Source: Thermocoleostomius sinensis A174
Lineage (GTDB): Bacteria; Cyanobacteriota; Cyanobacteriia; Elainellales; Elainellaceae
Assembly: GCF_026802175.1 (NCBI RefSeq)
Contig: NZ_CP113797.1
Span: 5,557,026-5,621,025, forward strand
DNA length: 64,000 nt
Direction of reading: 5' to 3'
Position 1 is the first letter of the stretch, and each line of letters starts with the position of its first letter. Shown here one piece after another: positions 1,746-36,564 of this stretch. A program made the position numbers and the translations under genes. The notes below the pieces were generated by a model. The model made no database searches and had not been told where the DNA came from. It saw nothing but the letters and a program-made list of their open reading frames with translations.

Positions 1746-3146
1746 ATGGTCAATACATCTTCACAACCTCAAACTTGGAGCCAACGGTTTGAATCGGCGC
1801 TGCATCCAGCGATCGCCCGCTTTAATGCCAGCATTGGGTTTGACATTGAACTAATTGAATACGACCTGACGGGTTCCCAAGCCCATGCCAACATGCTGGC
1901 CCATACAGGCATTCTTTCAGTAGAAGAAGGAGAAAAACTGATTGAAGGATTAGAACAAATTCGGCAAGAATATCGGCGAGGCGAGTTCAATCCGGGTGTT
2001 GAGGCTGAGGATGTACATTTTGCGGTAGAGCGGCGGCTGACGGAATTAGTTGGAGATATTGGCAAAAAACTGCACACGGCTCGATCGCGCAACGACCAAG
2101 TGGGAACCGACACGCGGCTGTATTTGCGTGACCAAATTACGCACATTCGCCAGCAGCTACGCGACTTCCAAACTGTAATGCTGACGTTGGCAGAGCAAAA
2201 CATCGAAACCCTGATTCCGGGCTATACCCACTTACAACGGGCCCAGCCGTTGAGCTTGGCACACCATCTGTTAGCCTATGTGGAGATGACCCAACGGGAC
2301 TGGGAGCGGTTGGGGGATGTGTATAAACGGGTAAATATTTCGCCTTTAGGCTGCGGAGCGTTAGCGGGTACGACGTTTCCCATCGATCGCCACTATTCGG
2401 CACAGTTGCTGAACTTCGATAAACCCTATGCCAATAGTTTGGACGGAGTCAGCGATCGAGATTTTGCGATCGAATTTCTCTGCGCGGCTAGCTTGATTAT
2501 GGTGCATCTGTCGCGGCTGGCTGAAGAAGTGATTTTGTGGGCTTCGGAAGAATTTAGCTTTGTGACGCTGAAAGACAGTTGCTCTACGGGTTCCAGCATC
2601 ATGCCGCAAAAGAAAAACCCGGATGTGCCGGAACTAGTGCGCGGCAAAACGGGACGAGTGTTTGGGCATCTGCAAGCCCTGCTGGTGCTGATGAAAGGAC
2701 TGCCCCTCGCCTACAACAAAGATTTGCAGGAGGACAAAGAAGCCCTATTTGATAGCGTCAAGACGGTACGAGCCTGTTTAGAAGCCATGACGATTTTGAT
2801 GCAGGAAGGGCTAGAGTTTCGCACGACTCGACTAAACGAAGCTGTTGCCGAAGATTTTTCCAATGCTACCGATGTCGCCGATTATTTGGCAGCTAAAGGG
2901 GTTCCCTTTCGCGAAGCCTACAACTTGGTGGGGAAAGTGGTGAAAACCTCGTTGTCTGCTGGAAAGTTGTTGAAGGATTTAACCCTGGATGAGTGGCAAG
3001 CGCTGCACCCTGCCTTTGCCGCCGATATCTACGAGGCGATCGCCCCACGTCAGGTGGTGTCAGCCCGTAACAGCTATGGTGGTACGGGCTTTGAACAGAT
3101 CAAACAAGCGCTAGCTGCGGCAAAGCAGCGTCTAAACGAAAGCTAA
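1746..3146 (+). CDS. argH: argininosuccinate lyase
   Basis: ArgH cleaves argininosuccinate into arginine and fumarate, the last step of arginine biosynthesis, as a cytoplasmic homotetramer. The 466-residue length is normal for the family. The fumarase/aspartase superfamily signature [12 protein letters not shown] is at about residues 282-293 and supplies the flexible catalytic-serine loop. [13 protein letters not shown] (substrate-binding loop) and [11 protein letters not shown] (catalytic-His loop) are also present. The ATG at 1746 begins a family-like N-terminus ([20 protein letters not shown]). It converges with aroF, nine bases apart at the stops. Confidence 0.97.
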
Positions 3147-3155
3147 GACCGATCT

Positions 3156-4016
3156 CTACACACAAGAAAGCCGGGGGACAATCCCGGCTCCTACAGGTAT
3201 GGATCGACCAACGGCGGCGGCGATCGGTTCTAGACTGCGCACTAAACTTACCATGTCTTCTAGAGAAATTGTCTGACGGGCATCTGAGATCGACTTTTCC
3301 GGCTCTGGATGACATTCCACCATGATGCCATCGGCTCCGCAGGCGACGGCGGCTCTGGCCAAATCGGCAACTAATTCTCGTTTACCGGTGGCATGACTGG
3401 GATCGACGACGATCGGCAGATGGGTAATTTGCCTCAGCGCGACCACGGCTCCCAAGTCCAACACATTGCGGGTGTAGCTATCGAAGCTGCGAATTCCTCG
3501 TTCGCATAAAATCACCTGGGAATTGCCGTGGCTGAGGATATATTCGGCGGCCATCACCAGTTCCTCGATCGTGGCAGCCAGTCCTCGTTTTAACAGGACA
3601 GGTTTGTTCACTTGCCCCAAGGCTTTCAGCAGATCAAAGTTTTGCATATTACGGCTACCCACTTGCAGCACATCGGCATGAGCCGCGATCTCCTCGATCT
3701 GTGAAATGGCCATGACTTCGGTAATCACAGGCAATCCGTAGCGATCGCGCATGGACGCCAGAATTTGTAACCCTTCTACGCCCAATCCTTGGAAATCATA
3801 TGGGGATGTGCGGGGCTTATACACACCTCCCCGGAGGGCTTGCACAGGAGCCGCCGCTAGCCGATTGGCGATGATTTCCATTTGCATTTGATTTTCCACC
3901 GAGCAGGGGCCACCGACAATCAACAAATCCGGACCACCGATCGAAACGCGATCGGATAGCTGAATCACGGTTTTATGTTCGGAATTAGCTTTGAGCGCGA
4001 GTTTCGCCTTTTGCAT
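3156..4016 (-). CDS. aroF: 3-deoxy-7-phosphoheptulonate (DAHP) synthase, short beta-type
   Basis: The enzyme condenses phosphoenolpyruvate with erythrose 4-phosphate, the first step of the shikimate pathway. Visible family motifs in order are GGPCSVEN (metal-binding Cys), KPRTSPYDFQGLG, VLLKRGL, ICERGIRSF, VDPSHATGKRELV and MVECHPEPEKSISDA. At 286 residues it is shorter than the usual roughly 340 of cyanobacterial enzymes and lacks most of the N-terminal ferredoxin-like regulatory domain, which may make it insensitive to aromatic amino acid feedback (inference). Its last ten codons form a terminator-like hairpin. A close homologue was historically labelled ccmA in cyanobacteria. Confidence 0.93.
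   Translation of the reverse strand: MQKAKLALKANSEHKTVIQLSDRVSIGGPDLLIVGGPCSVENQMQMEIIANRLAAAPVQALRGGVYKPRTSPYDFQGLGVEGLQILASMRDRYGLPVITEVMAISQIEEIAAHADVLQVGSRNMQNFDLLKALGQVNKPVLLKRGLAATIEELVMAAEYILSHGNSQVILCERGIRSFDSYTRNVLDLGAVVALRQITHLPIVVDPSHATGKRELVADLARAAVACGADGIMVECHPEPEKSISDARQTISLEDMVSLVRSLEPIAAAVGRSIPVGAGIVPRLSCV
3169..3189 (-). terminator. intrinsic terminator-like hairpin inside the last codons of aroF
   Basis: On the minus strand AGCCGGG and CCCGGCT form a perfect 7-bp stem around a 7-base loop, followed by TTTCTTGTGTG. The aroF frame runs through it and stops at 3156-3158, beyond the hairpin. Confidence 0.55.
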
Positions 4017-4148
4017 GAGAAGTCTCCTTGGTTGAGGTTGGGGAGTAGAGGTAGGGAGTAGGGAATTAGGAACTGGGAGAATGAGGAAGGTAGAGGAGAA
4101 AAATCCATCTACTCTCTTTTCATCTTTCAGCTTTTAGCGTTTCAAACT

Positions 4149-4182
4149 AAAAACCCGGAACCGTTTCTGGCTCCGGGTTTTG
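4149..4182 (-). terminator. strong bidirectional terminator-like hairpin upstream of aroF
   Basis: On the minus strand ACCCGGAGCC and GGTTCCGGGT pair (one mismatch) around AGAAAC and are followed by TTTTTAG, a canonical intrinsic terminator about 135 bases before the aroF start. On the plus strand the stem ends in GGGTTTTG. It could terminate the small RNA proposed just upstream or act as an aroF attenuator. Confidence 0.6.
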
Positions 4183-4322
4183 TGAATGCGGTTGCAGCAC
4201 CATTTACCCAGAGCTTAGGCTGAGCCAAAAAAAGTAAAAGCCGTAAAAAAAGCTGGGAGAATGATGCAACACAATCGGATTCCTATACTTAGTAGGGGGG
4301 ATAACGACAGTCTTAAAAATAC

Positions 4323-4400
4323 AAAAACCGCAGTGTTCATTCTGCGGTTCACCTTGAGGTTTCATGCGAGATTGAACTCACCTCAGGTGAACCTCCATAA
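4323..4400 (-). ncRNA. candidate small structured RNA ending in an intrinsic terminator
   Basis: Read on the minus strand, GGTTCACC-TGAGGT (about 4380-4393) pairs with ACCTCA-AGGTGAACC (about 4346-4360) to give a 14-bp stem with one bulge. It is followed at once by AACCGCAG/CTGCGGTT (4327-4348) and the T-rich run TTTTTGTATTTTT. The two stems share the bases AACC, so they may compete. No protein frame is convincing here. I do not recognise it as Yfr1, Yfr2, 6S or another known cyanobacterial RNA, and the 5' end is a guess. Confidence 0.4.
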
Positions 4401-4582
4401 ACCAAAAGTAAAAGTAGGATGCAGATTGACACATATGGTTGCGAGTTCTTGCTAAAATTTGCTGATTTATTGCCAAGGTAGCAAAGTCGGAGAAGATTAG
4501 TCAAGTACCCGATCGGGGTACAAGGCATCAGCAAAATTAATAGCTTCACCTCAGCTAAGCGACGATTGATTGTGAGCAAATT

Positions 4583-5536
4583 GTGAGTGAATCGCATCCG
4601 AAAAAAATTCGTGCGCCGATGAATCGCACCCTAGATCTGACACCGGAAGACCGCTTGCGCTTGCGGCCACGTTTAATTCGTGATATCCCAATAGAGTTGA
4701 CCGCACTGCCGATCGGCACAATCCACGGAGATTCGATCGCGTTGGCTTCCCACCTACCATGTCATACTGTGGATTTGCTGATTTTAGATCCGCCCTACAA
4801 TCTCAACAAAGATTTCAATGGCTATCGATTCTCTAAGCGCACGGTGGCAGACTACACGAGGTGGCTCGATCGGGCAATCGTAGCCTTTAAACCACTGCTC
4901 AAATCCACGGCTTCCGTTTATATTTGCGGTGAATGGTTGACTTCTGCGTCTATCTTCGAGGTGGCGTCTTCTCATTTCATTGTCCGCAATCGCATCACGT
5001 GGGAACGTGAGAAAGGGCGAGGAGCTAAAGCTAACTGGAAAAATGCTAGTGAGGATATTTGGTTTTGCACTGTATCCAACACGTATACCTTTAACGCTGA
5101 TGCTGTGAAGTTGCGCCGCCGTGTAATTGCACCCTATCGCCAGCAGGACGGTACACCTAAAGATTGGCAAATCACCCAGCAGGGTAAGTTTCGAGAAACA
5201 TATCCCTCGAATCTGTGGACGGACATCACTGTGCCGTTTTGGTCAATGCCCGAAAATACTAATCACCCGACCCAGAAAAGCGAGAAGCTCATCGCTAAGC
5301 TGATTTTGGCTAGCACCAAGGTGGGGGATATGGTCTTCGATCCATTTCAAGGCAGCGGCACATCGTCGGTGGTAGCGAAGAAACTCAATCGAGCTTACCT
5401 AGGCATTGATTTGAATGAAGAGTATTGCCTGTTGGCAGAGCGACGTTTGGAACTGGCAGAGGTCGATACCACGATTCAAGGTTTAGCGGAGGGGGTGTTT
5501 TGGGAGCGCAATACGTCGGTAGGGCGATCCTCGTAA
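4583..5536 (+). CDS. orphan beta-class DNA methyltransferase (N6-adenine or N4-cytosine)
   Basis: The 317-residue protein has DPPYNLNKDFNG (catalytic motif IV, D69-Y72) before DPFQGSGTSS (SAM-binding motif I, residues 253-262), the order of beta-class amino-methyltransferases. The stretch between them would be the target-recognition region. It transfers a methyl group from S-adenosylmethionine to an exocyclic amine of a base in duplex DNA. No restriction endonuclease is adjacent, so it is a solitary methylase, probably for genome marking. Widely conserved cyanobacterial solitary methylases include the GGCC-type m4C enzyme of Synechocystis; homology to that one is a guess. The start may be GTG 4583 or ATG 4619. 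Confidence 0.9.
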   Translation: MSESHPKKIRAPMNRTLDLTPEDRLRLRPRLIRDIPIELTALPIGTIHGDSIALASHLPCHTVDLLILDPPYNLNKDFNGYRFSKRTVADYTRWLDRAIVAFKPLLKSTASVYICGEWLTSASIFEVASSHFIVRNRITWEREKGRGAKANWKNASEDIWFCTVSNTYTFNADAVKLRRRVIAPYRQQDGTPKDWQITQQGKFRETYPSNLWTDITVPFWSMPENTNHPTQKSEKLIAKLILASTKVGDMVFDPFQGSGTSSVVAKKLNRAYLGIDLNEEYCLLAERRLELAEVDTTIQGLAEGVFWERNTSVGRSS

Positions 5537-5632
5537 TCTCCCCGATCGAATCTCCAAAAACTAAACTCCAAAAACGATCTAGGCTATTAAATTAGTCTCT
5601 TAAATTTAGTTTCTACTGTTCTTAGTGCTTTT

Positions 5633-6466
5633 ATGCAAGTTGAATGGCGCGTCGTTAAAACCTACGAAGATATTCTTTATCACAAAGCCGATGGCATCGC
5701 CAAAATCACCATTAACCGCCCCCATAAACGCAATGCCTTTCGTCCCAAGACCATTTTTGAACTCTACGATGCCTTTGTCGATGCTCGCGAAGATACCGAT
5801 ATCGGCGTTGTGCTGCTGACCGGGGCCGGTCCCCACACCGACGGCAAGTATGCCTTCTGCTCCGGTGGCGATCAAAGCGTGCGCGGCGAGGCGGGTTATG
5901 TGGGCGATGATGGCATTCCTCGCTTGAACGTGTTGGATTTGCAGCGGTTGATTCGATCGATGCCTAAAGTGGTAATTGCCCTAGTGGCAGGCTATGCCAT
6001 TGGTGGTGGGCATGTGCTGCATGTAGTATGTGATTTGACGATCGCAGCCGATAATGCCATCTTTGGACAAACAGGACCCAAGGTAGGTAGCTTTGACGGA
6101 GGGTTTGGAGCCAGTTACTTAGCGCGAATTATTGGTCAGAAAAAAGCACGCGAAATTTGGTTTCTCTGTCGGCAATATGATGCGAACCAAGCCTTAGAGA
6201 TGGGGTTGGTCAATTGCGTTGTTCCCGTTGAGCACTTGGAAGCGGAAGGAATTCAATGGGCCCAAGAAATCCTAGAGAAAAGTCCGATCGCCATTCGTTG
6301 CCTTAAAGCGGCGTTCAACGCCGACTGTGATGGACAAGCGGGATTACAAGAACTGGCTGGTAATGCCACTTTGCTCTACTACATGACTGAAGAAGGAGCC
6401 GAAGGAAAGCAGGCTTTTCTAGAAAAGCGCAAACCCAATTTTCGTCAATATCCCTGGCTGCCATAG
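5633..6466 (+). CDS. menB: 1,4-dihydroxy-2-naphthoyl-CoA synthase
   Basis: MenB closes the second ring from o-succinylbenzoyl-CoA in the naphthoquinone pathway, which in cyanobacteria makes the phylloquinone of photosystem I. The crotonase-fold motifs are clear: [13 protein letters not shown] at the N-terminus, [11 protein letters not shown] and [11 protein letters not shown] (oxyanion hole), and [19 protein letters not shown], typical of the bicarbonate-dependent MenB subgroup. The length of 277 residues is normal. It starts with ATG at 5633 and is monocistronic here; the rest of the men pathway is not in the window. Confidence 0.96.
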
Positions 6467-36179: not shown

Positions 36180-36564
36180 GCATACCTTTTTTAGGTTAAT
36201 GATTGGGTCGATCGCAGTCAGTGGCAGGGTTCGATCGCATTTGTTCGATCGCATTTACAAAAAGCCCCCAGCCGAAGCCAGGGGCGATTAAATCAGGGTG
36301 CATCTACCATTCCCATATACCTGTTGGACAGCACTTATCCGGAAACTAATCTGTATCAAACTAATCTATCGGCGTAATCCTGTGGTTTAGTTTCCCGGTG
36401 TTCTTTCCCATGCTTGAAATTCCTGGGTGCCTAGCTTATTGGCGCCACTTGTTTGCATAACCTCGTGTAACCGATCGTTTTCAGTCAATGAAGGGATGCA
36501 TTGAGACAGTTTGTGCCCTTCAACCATTCATCTACAAAACGCCATAGGCAAAGGAGCAACGGCA

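Follow-up and report, generated by a model that had tools for sequence, protein, structure and literature searches.

Leader-peptide attenuation is a textbook mechanism. The trpL and pheL systems of E. coli each have one leader for one amino acid, and their segment scheme includes a protector 1:2 stem. In both, stalling on codons for the end product chooses between a terminator and an antiterminator (PMC11802643), much as is proposed below. Leader peptides have also been described before DAHP synthase genes. In Corynebacterium glutamicum, the aroR leader of the aroF operon (Neshat 2014, as cited in PMC11802643) encodes a leader peptide containing Phe-Tyr-Phe upstream of such a gene, and transcription was described as rising under Phe limitation and as unresponsive to Tyr (PMC11802643). 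In Acholeplasma, the uORFC-13-1 motif places a predicted uORF with a Phe codon beside an intrinsic terminator before aroF; it has one uORF and is described from 24 sequences of Acholeplasma and environmental DNA, not from cyanobacteria (PMC8632094). Two short ORFs in one leader RNA, each controlling transcription elongation, have been described for Salmonella mgtCBR. These two ORFs answer different signals (ATP and proline) in an additive manner, and this tandem attenuation is called a singular example by its authors (PMC3641672). According to a 2010 survey, no case had been known outside Proteobacteria and Actinobacteria until the one that it described in Firmicutes (PMC2965389), and a 2016 paper stated that there were no reliable data on attenuation in cyanobacteria (PMC4833913).

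The locus analyzed here lies in a 64,000-nt stretch of DNA from the cyanobacterium Thermocoleostomius sinensis A174, referred to as the window. All elements of the leader are on the minus strand, upstream of aroF-A (4016-3156), which encodes a type I-beta-like DAHP synthase of 286 aa that lacks an N-terminal ferredoxin-like domain. DAHP synthase is the first enzyme of the Tyr/Phe/Trp pathway. The 5' leader of this gene is best explained, with a probability of about 0.93, as two ribosome-mediated (leader-peptide) transcription attenuators in series. aroR is one leader in an actinobacterium (PMC11802643), whereas here two leaders in series carry codons for Tyr, Phe and Trp. Unlike in mgtCBR, both leaders carry the same three amino acids, each with its own intrinsic terminator. 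Judged from sequence comparison, tandem aromatic attenuators before aroF-A would be a new variant of a known mechanism that appears to be widespread in the class. The unit was not described in any title or abstract start found in the open-access literature. Two gates in series with the same three amino acids lend themselves to the question of what tandem attenuation achieves.

Leader peptide 1 is encoded at 4434-4378 (MCQSASYFYFWFMEVHLR followed by a stop codon, with an ATG start), and an equivalent ORF was picked in 75/75 distinct aroF-A loci. It contains six consecutive aromatic codons (Tyr Phe Tyr Phe Trp Phe, within 4399..4416). Its stop codon sits inside the 5' arm of a 14-bp stem with one bulged base, formed by 4393-4380 (arm A1, which includes the end of the ORF up to the first base of the stop codon) and 4360-4346 (arm B1). 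The final four bases of B1 (AACC, 4349-4346) are also the start of terminator 1, a hairpin at 4350-4325 with a T-rich tail at 4327-4315, supported by a terminator scan, shuffled folds and covariation. Leader peptide 2 is encoded at 4272-4204 (MLHHSPSFFYGFYFFWLSLSSG followed by a stop codon) with equivalents in 74/75 distinct aroF-A loci. Its GTG start is followed by TTG in this sequence; ATG is found in most relatives. Eight of nine codons within 4225..4251 are aromatic (Phe Phe Tyr Gly Phe Tyr Phe Phe Trp). The 5' arm of antiterminator 2 (A2, within 4206..4214), identified from sequence, covariation and nascent folding, overlaps the stop codon of leader 2, and its 3' arm (B2, within 4170..4178) lies within the 5' arm of terminator 2. 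The terminator 2 hairpin with its T-run (4181-4149; folds and covariation) is located about 150 nt beyond terminator 1, with its end 132 nt upstream of the aroF start (4016). Each leader ORF terminates in an arm able to pair with the 5' side of its own terminator.

A sequence-only reading of this DNA had already listed the 14-bp stem, the terminator hairpin with its T-rich run, the second strong terminator about 150 bases on and the four bases common to the first two stems, and each of these was recovered at the positions given above. The same reading had stated that no coding frame explains the stems. This was wrong: the stems are explained by two short ORFs with many Tyr, Phe and Trp codons, whose leader peptides are central to the proposed mechanism. 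One of the two ORFs begins 34 nt outside the interval 4149-4400 that had been considered.

The fold of the region is stronger than that of dinucleotide shuffles, with z = -5.1 for 4149-4400 and -3.8 for 4320-4400, and with z = -4.1 for terminator 1 and -6.6 for terminator 2. A simple terminator scan of 3000-6000 gave no numerical excess (2 found versus 3.3 expected) and did not list terminator 2. The stems are judged real because they are conserved; conservation, not the count of terminators, decides. When the whole window was scanned with Rfam 15, no small RNA, T-box or riboswitch reached threshold at the aroF leader. A match of SdsR_RyeB at terminator 2 (20.9 bits, cut-off 38) was regarded as a fortuitous hit on a T-run hairpin. 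Elsewhere, the sole threshold match in the window was NsiR1 (nitrogen stress-induced RNA 1) at 36257-36309 on the minus strand (56.7 bits, cut-off 39).

In the proposed mechanism, RNA polymerase would transcribe leader ORF 1 first, and its six aromatic codons would gauge the supply of charged tRNA-Tyr, tRNA-Phe and tRNA-Trp. With plentiful charged tRNAs, the translating ribosome would reach the stop codon of leader 1 and cover A1, so that terminator 1 could form. With scarce charged tRNAs, the ribosome would stall on the aromatic codons and A1 would pair with B1, which would withdraw four bases from the start of terminator 1 and let polymerase read through. Leader ORF 2 would come next, with A2 competing likewise for the larger part of the 5' arm of terminator 2. 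aroF would be transcribed only by polymerase that passes both gates. The enzyme would then probably be made only when Tyr, Phe and Trp run short. With a single promoter upstream of both leaders, as we infer, the two gates would be expected to multiply their readthrough. The short RNA released by termination would be produced even with plentiful aromatics and could conceivably have a further role in trans.

The aromatic reading frames are conserved. In a blastn search, 4200-4470 matched 35 of 60 genomes, counting that of T. sinensis, and every match lies upstream of aroF and on the same strand. To avoid choosing loci by the leader itself, aroF was also collected by protein. An aroF-like match was found in 138/175 genomes of the class, counting aroF-A and paralogues together, and the aroF-A set was cut at about E 1e-115, which gave 60 genomes; G003 and G038 were omitted, as their aroF-A genes are cut by contig ends. 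Upstream regions with an identical last 250 nt were counted once (L001, for example, is a duplicate of L002), which reduced 104 regions to 86, 75 of them upstream of aroF-A. An aromatic-cluster ORF was defined as one with at least 5 aromatic residues in 9, Trp included. At least two such ORFs were present in 72/75 distinct aroF-A upstream regions, 35 of which (own included) had first been found through the leader DNA, compared with 1.2% of 1,500 shuffles and 0/75 reverse strands. Both Tyr codons and both Phe codons occur at the aromatic positions. Some ORFs were assigned by judgment: the leader 2 ORF at L013, L071 and L081 was picked by hand because the selection rule had chosen wrongly, and non-ATG starts were set by rule or by hand in 2 cases for leader 1 and 6 for leader 2.

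Aromatic ORFs were also counted in loci found by protein only. Of 80 such loci, 78 had at least 400 nt upstream, and 69/78 had at least two aromatic ORFs, a count in which the second ORF is not leader 2 in a few loci (e.g., L157); six had one and three had none. Some genomes are in both locus sets. The three loci without an aromatic ORF by this count were L156, L158 and L184. Covariance models matched both leaders in L158 and also in L156, where they are farther upstream; L184 had no match to either. Among all 80 loci, the leader 1 model matched 75 and the leader 2 model 73, with L121 and L125 cut short upstream.

Covariation was assessed in alignments of 35 sequences, which are related to each other, so the counts that follow are not independent events. 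Paired cells amounted to 97.9% for antiterminator 1 (8 bp core), 99.6% for terminator 1, 89.8% for antiterminator 2 and 90.0% for terminator 2. All four helices exceeded shuffles and slid controls in paired cells and in covariation score. For three of them (terminator 1, antiterminator 2 and terminator 2), additional pair types were no more numerous than in shuffles. The clearest sign of alternative structures is the three-way covariation at the shared bases. In alignment A2, where triplets are given in the order arm A1, shared base and 3' arm of terminator 1, columns 62/106/131 read TAT in 30 sequences, CGT in 2, TGC in 2 and CGC in 1, and columns 63/105/132 read TAT in 33 and TGC in 2. In alignment A3, columns 73/117/139 read GCG in 32 and GTA in 3. 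At all three positions, pairing of the shared base with each of its two partners is possible in 35/35 sequences; less clean shared columns of alignment A3 are 69/121/135 (23/35) and 68/122/134 (18/35). The arms also pair better within than between species, in 72/75 cases for attenuator 1 and 60/74 for attenuator 2. The suggestion of the sequence-only reading that the first two stems may be mutually exclusive, as in attenuators, is strongly supported by these shared bases. Its second guess, an aromatic-responsive aroF leader, likewise gains strong support from the conserved aromatic ORFs and the covarying arms, from which a response to aromatics would be expected.

The protector 1:2 stem of the E. 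coli leaders is a point of difference. In leader 1, such a stem is unsupported, with better within-species pairing in 39/75, which is about chance. In leader 2, segment 1 (4270-4253, the leader 2 start region) could form a protector stem with segment 2 (4213-4191); within-species pairing is better in 54/74, a moderate level of support, and the stem forms in the unmasked fold.

The spacing of the elements is also well kept. Among 71 loci in which A1 was found by pattern, the Trp codon is 8 nt from A1 in 54 and the leader 1 stop codon is 13 nt from the A1 start in 65. In leader 2, the distance from the last aromatic codon to the stop codon is 18 nt in 54/74.

Folds with the ribosome footprint masked gave a more conditional picture. 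When the ribosome is placed at codon 9 of leader 1, as in a stall, the predicted structure is antiterminator 1, and terminator 1 is reduced to 4 bp; a ribosome placed at the stop codon allows terminator 1 to form. The ribosome-free RNA folds into A1:B1. A stall on the first Tyr codon (7 in the A site) yields a different local structure in which terminator 1 stays intact, and stalls at Trp (11) or the last Phe (12) retain 7-8 bp of this terminator, roughly the number seen for a ribosome at the stop. In leader 2, terminator 2 wins at equilibrium in every masked state, and antitermination at this leader must therefore be kinetic. Nascent RNA that ends before the 3' arm of the terminator forms A2:B2 (-23.0 kcal/mol); without a ribosome, the 1:2 stem and the terminator form, as in the trp scheme. 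On the evidence of these folds, the model works only with specific stall sites and with kinetic folding. No sigma-70 promoter was assigned: a 9-of-12 match upstream of 16/75 leaders versus 8% of shuffles is a weak excess, and 10 positions matched in none. An ORF at 4583-5536 on the plus strand, which resembles a DNA methyltransferase by its DPPYN motif, is divergent from the aroF leader, and any leader promoter should lie between the two.

How widespread is the unit, and how closely is it linked to this type of DAHP synthase? The leader 1 covariance model matched 126/388 genomes of the class, one match each, in 15 families. The leader 2 model matched 109/290 genomes, with two weak matches, one of which is the sole match of G194. 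Both models matched in 106 genomes. In 59/60 aroF-A genomes, a leader 1 match is found 148-355 nt upstream of aroF-A on the same strand; the models were trained on 35 such loci, and part of these linkage and match counts is thus true by construction. The exception is G088, where the leader 2 model does match. The G146 contig breaks off after leader 2. Neither model matched any of 28 loci, made up of paralogues and of aroF-like genes from outside the class. No leader was present at any of 10 paralogue loci (L096-L105), and no aromatic leader at 16 aroF-like loci from 14 genomes outside the class. In the T. sinensis genome, a strict pattern of four aromatic codons followed by Trp, with the stop seven codons later, matches leader 1 alone. 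In G136 (L203, G136:C48:72500-76000, minus strand), leader 1 is kept before a decayed aroF-A fragment, and intact aroF-A was not found.

These results bear on other explanations of the locus. The sequence-only reading had put a probable small RNA in its title. In an explanation of this kind, the region from about 4434 to 4315 would give a free transcript that acts on other mRNAs, with separate transcription of aroF. Such an explanation predicts a terminated RNA of about 120 nt, as does the attenuator model, and a trans-acting leader peptide, peTrpL, has been described in S. meliloti (PMC7298713). The conserved reading frame of synonymous aromatic codons argues against a free small RNA, as do the position of the unit upstream of aroF-A in nearly all genomes of that set and before the decayed gene in G136, the second unit of the same build that follows the first, and the absence of a Rfam small RNA match at the aroF leader. 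We consider a free small RNA very improbable, and it was rejected as the main reading on account of frame conservation and of the unit's linkage to aroF-A. It is not the best account of the terminators, since each belongs to its own attenuator.

It is improbable, with more to be said for it, that only one unit works as an attenuator and that the other is a relic or a simple terminator. Some lineages do keep one unit. Leader 2 was not found in L035, the leader 1 model matched without the leader 2 model in G045, G136 and G291, and the converse was seen in G088, G194 (weak) and G229. The many genomes matched by both models and the covariation of shared bases in both units speak for two working attenuators. 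Very little credence is given to a last alternative, in which the leaders act mainly by translation coupling or as an aromatic-sensing RNA (T-box or riboswitch) rather than by ribosome stalling. No specific point was found in its favor; terminator 2 ends well before the aroF start (by the 132 nt noted above), no T-box or riboswitch family reached threshold in the window, and the conserved signal is an in-frame run of aromatic codons. Two attenuators in series remain the preferred reading.

The enzyme itself offers a possible rationale for such control. The ferredoxin-like domain PF18152 is absent from 14/14 aroF-A proteins of set A1 and from L221. It is present in 10/10 other aroF-like proteins (the T. 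sinensis paralogue, five loci of the class and four outside the class). Solved structures exist for both builds, with and without the domain. In the Thermotoga DAHP synthase, this domain mediates Phe/Tyr feedback (PMC5526877), and AroF-A, which lacks it, is therefore expected to escape such feedback. By this analogy, the data suggest that control of the aroF-A gene replaces control of the enzyme. The aroF-A leader unit might also find practical use as a lever on aromatic compounds in cyanobacteria. The possibility that aroF-A is the only DAHP synthase in the 29 genomes with a single aroF-like match was rejected. When these 29 and the T. sinensis genome were examined, a further PF00793 match was present in 29/30, with one PF00793 match only in G045, and type II DAHP synthase (PF01474) was found in 0/30. 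The further PF00793 enzyme, of about 360 aa, is presumably of type I-alpha. No shared leader was found upstream of it in 12 genomes; at a laxer threshold, 4/12 had unrelated ORFs.

The age of the unit can be approached through loci labeled as Melainabacteria. Leader 1 was matched at 63.7-83.5 bits in L158, L174, L176 and L178, which are labeled as Candidatus Melainabacteria or 'Cyanobacteria bacterium SZAS LIN-3' (which we take to be akin to Melainabacteria). The leader 2 model gave 77.2 bits in L158, 34 in L174, 15.5 (partial) in L176 and 8.7 in L178; an aromatic ORF is present in L176 and L178 by ORF count despite these low scores. In the protein tree, five rows, these four loci and L184, lie outside the other cyanobacterial rows, which form a group of 80 (support 89/83), with L184 and L158 as long branches in a tree that includes metagenome bins, which can be mixed. 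Isolate SJ512, labeled as Candidatus Melainabacteria, has two aroF-A-like genes, L176 with leaders and a divergent L184 without either. Ancient descent of the leader unit together with aroF-A is possible. It is tentatively proposed, at somewhat less than even odds, that the two-gate attenuator for three aromatics arose with aroF-A before the split of Cyanobacteriia and Melainabacteria and has been inherited since, with gates that would multiply to a steep switch and stand in for the missing allosteric domain. If this origin is correct, the unit would be among the oldest known leader-peptide attenuators.

Two minor observations concern the relation of leaders to each other and to paralogues. 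The leader 2 model weakly matches leader 1 (17.9-23.9 bits) at L175:1199-1332, L154:1204-1335, L142:1165-1297 and L174:1168-1301, which may reflect origin by duplication or merely similar codons. At L095, a paralogue with the regulatory domain, a lone aromatic ORF is located about 359 nt upstream of its aroF and is followed by a terminator-like hairpin; this is possibly an independent attenuator and an exception among paralogues.
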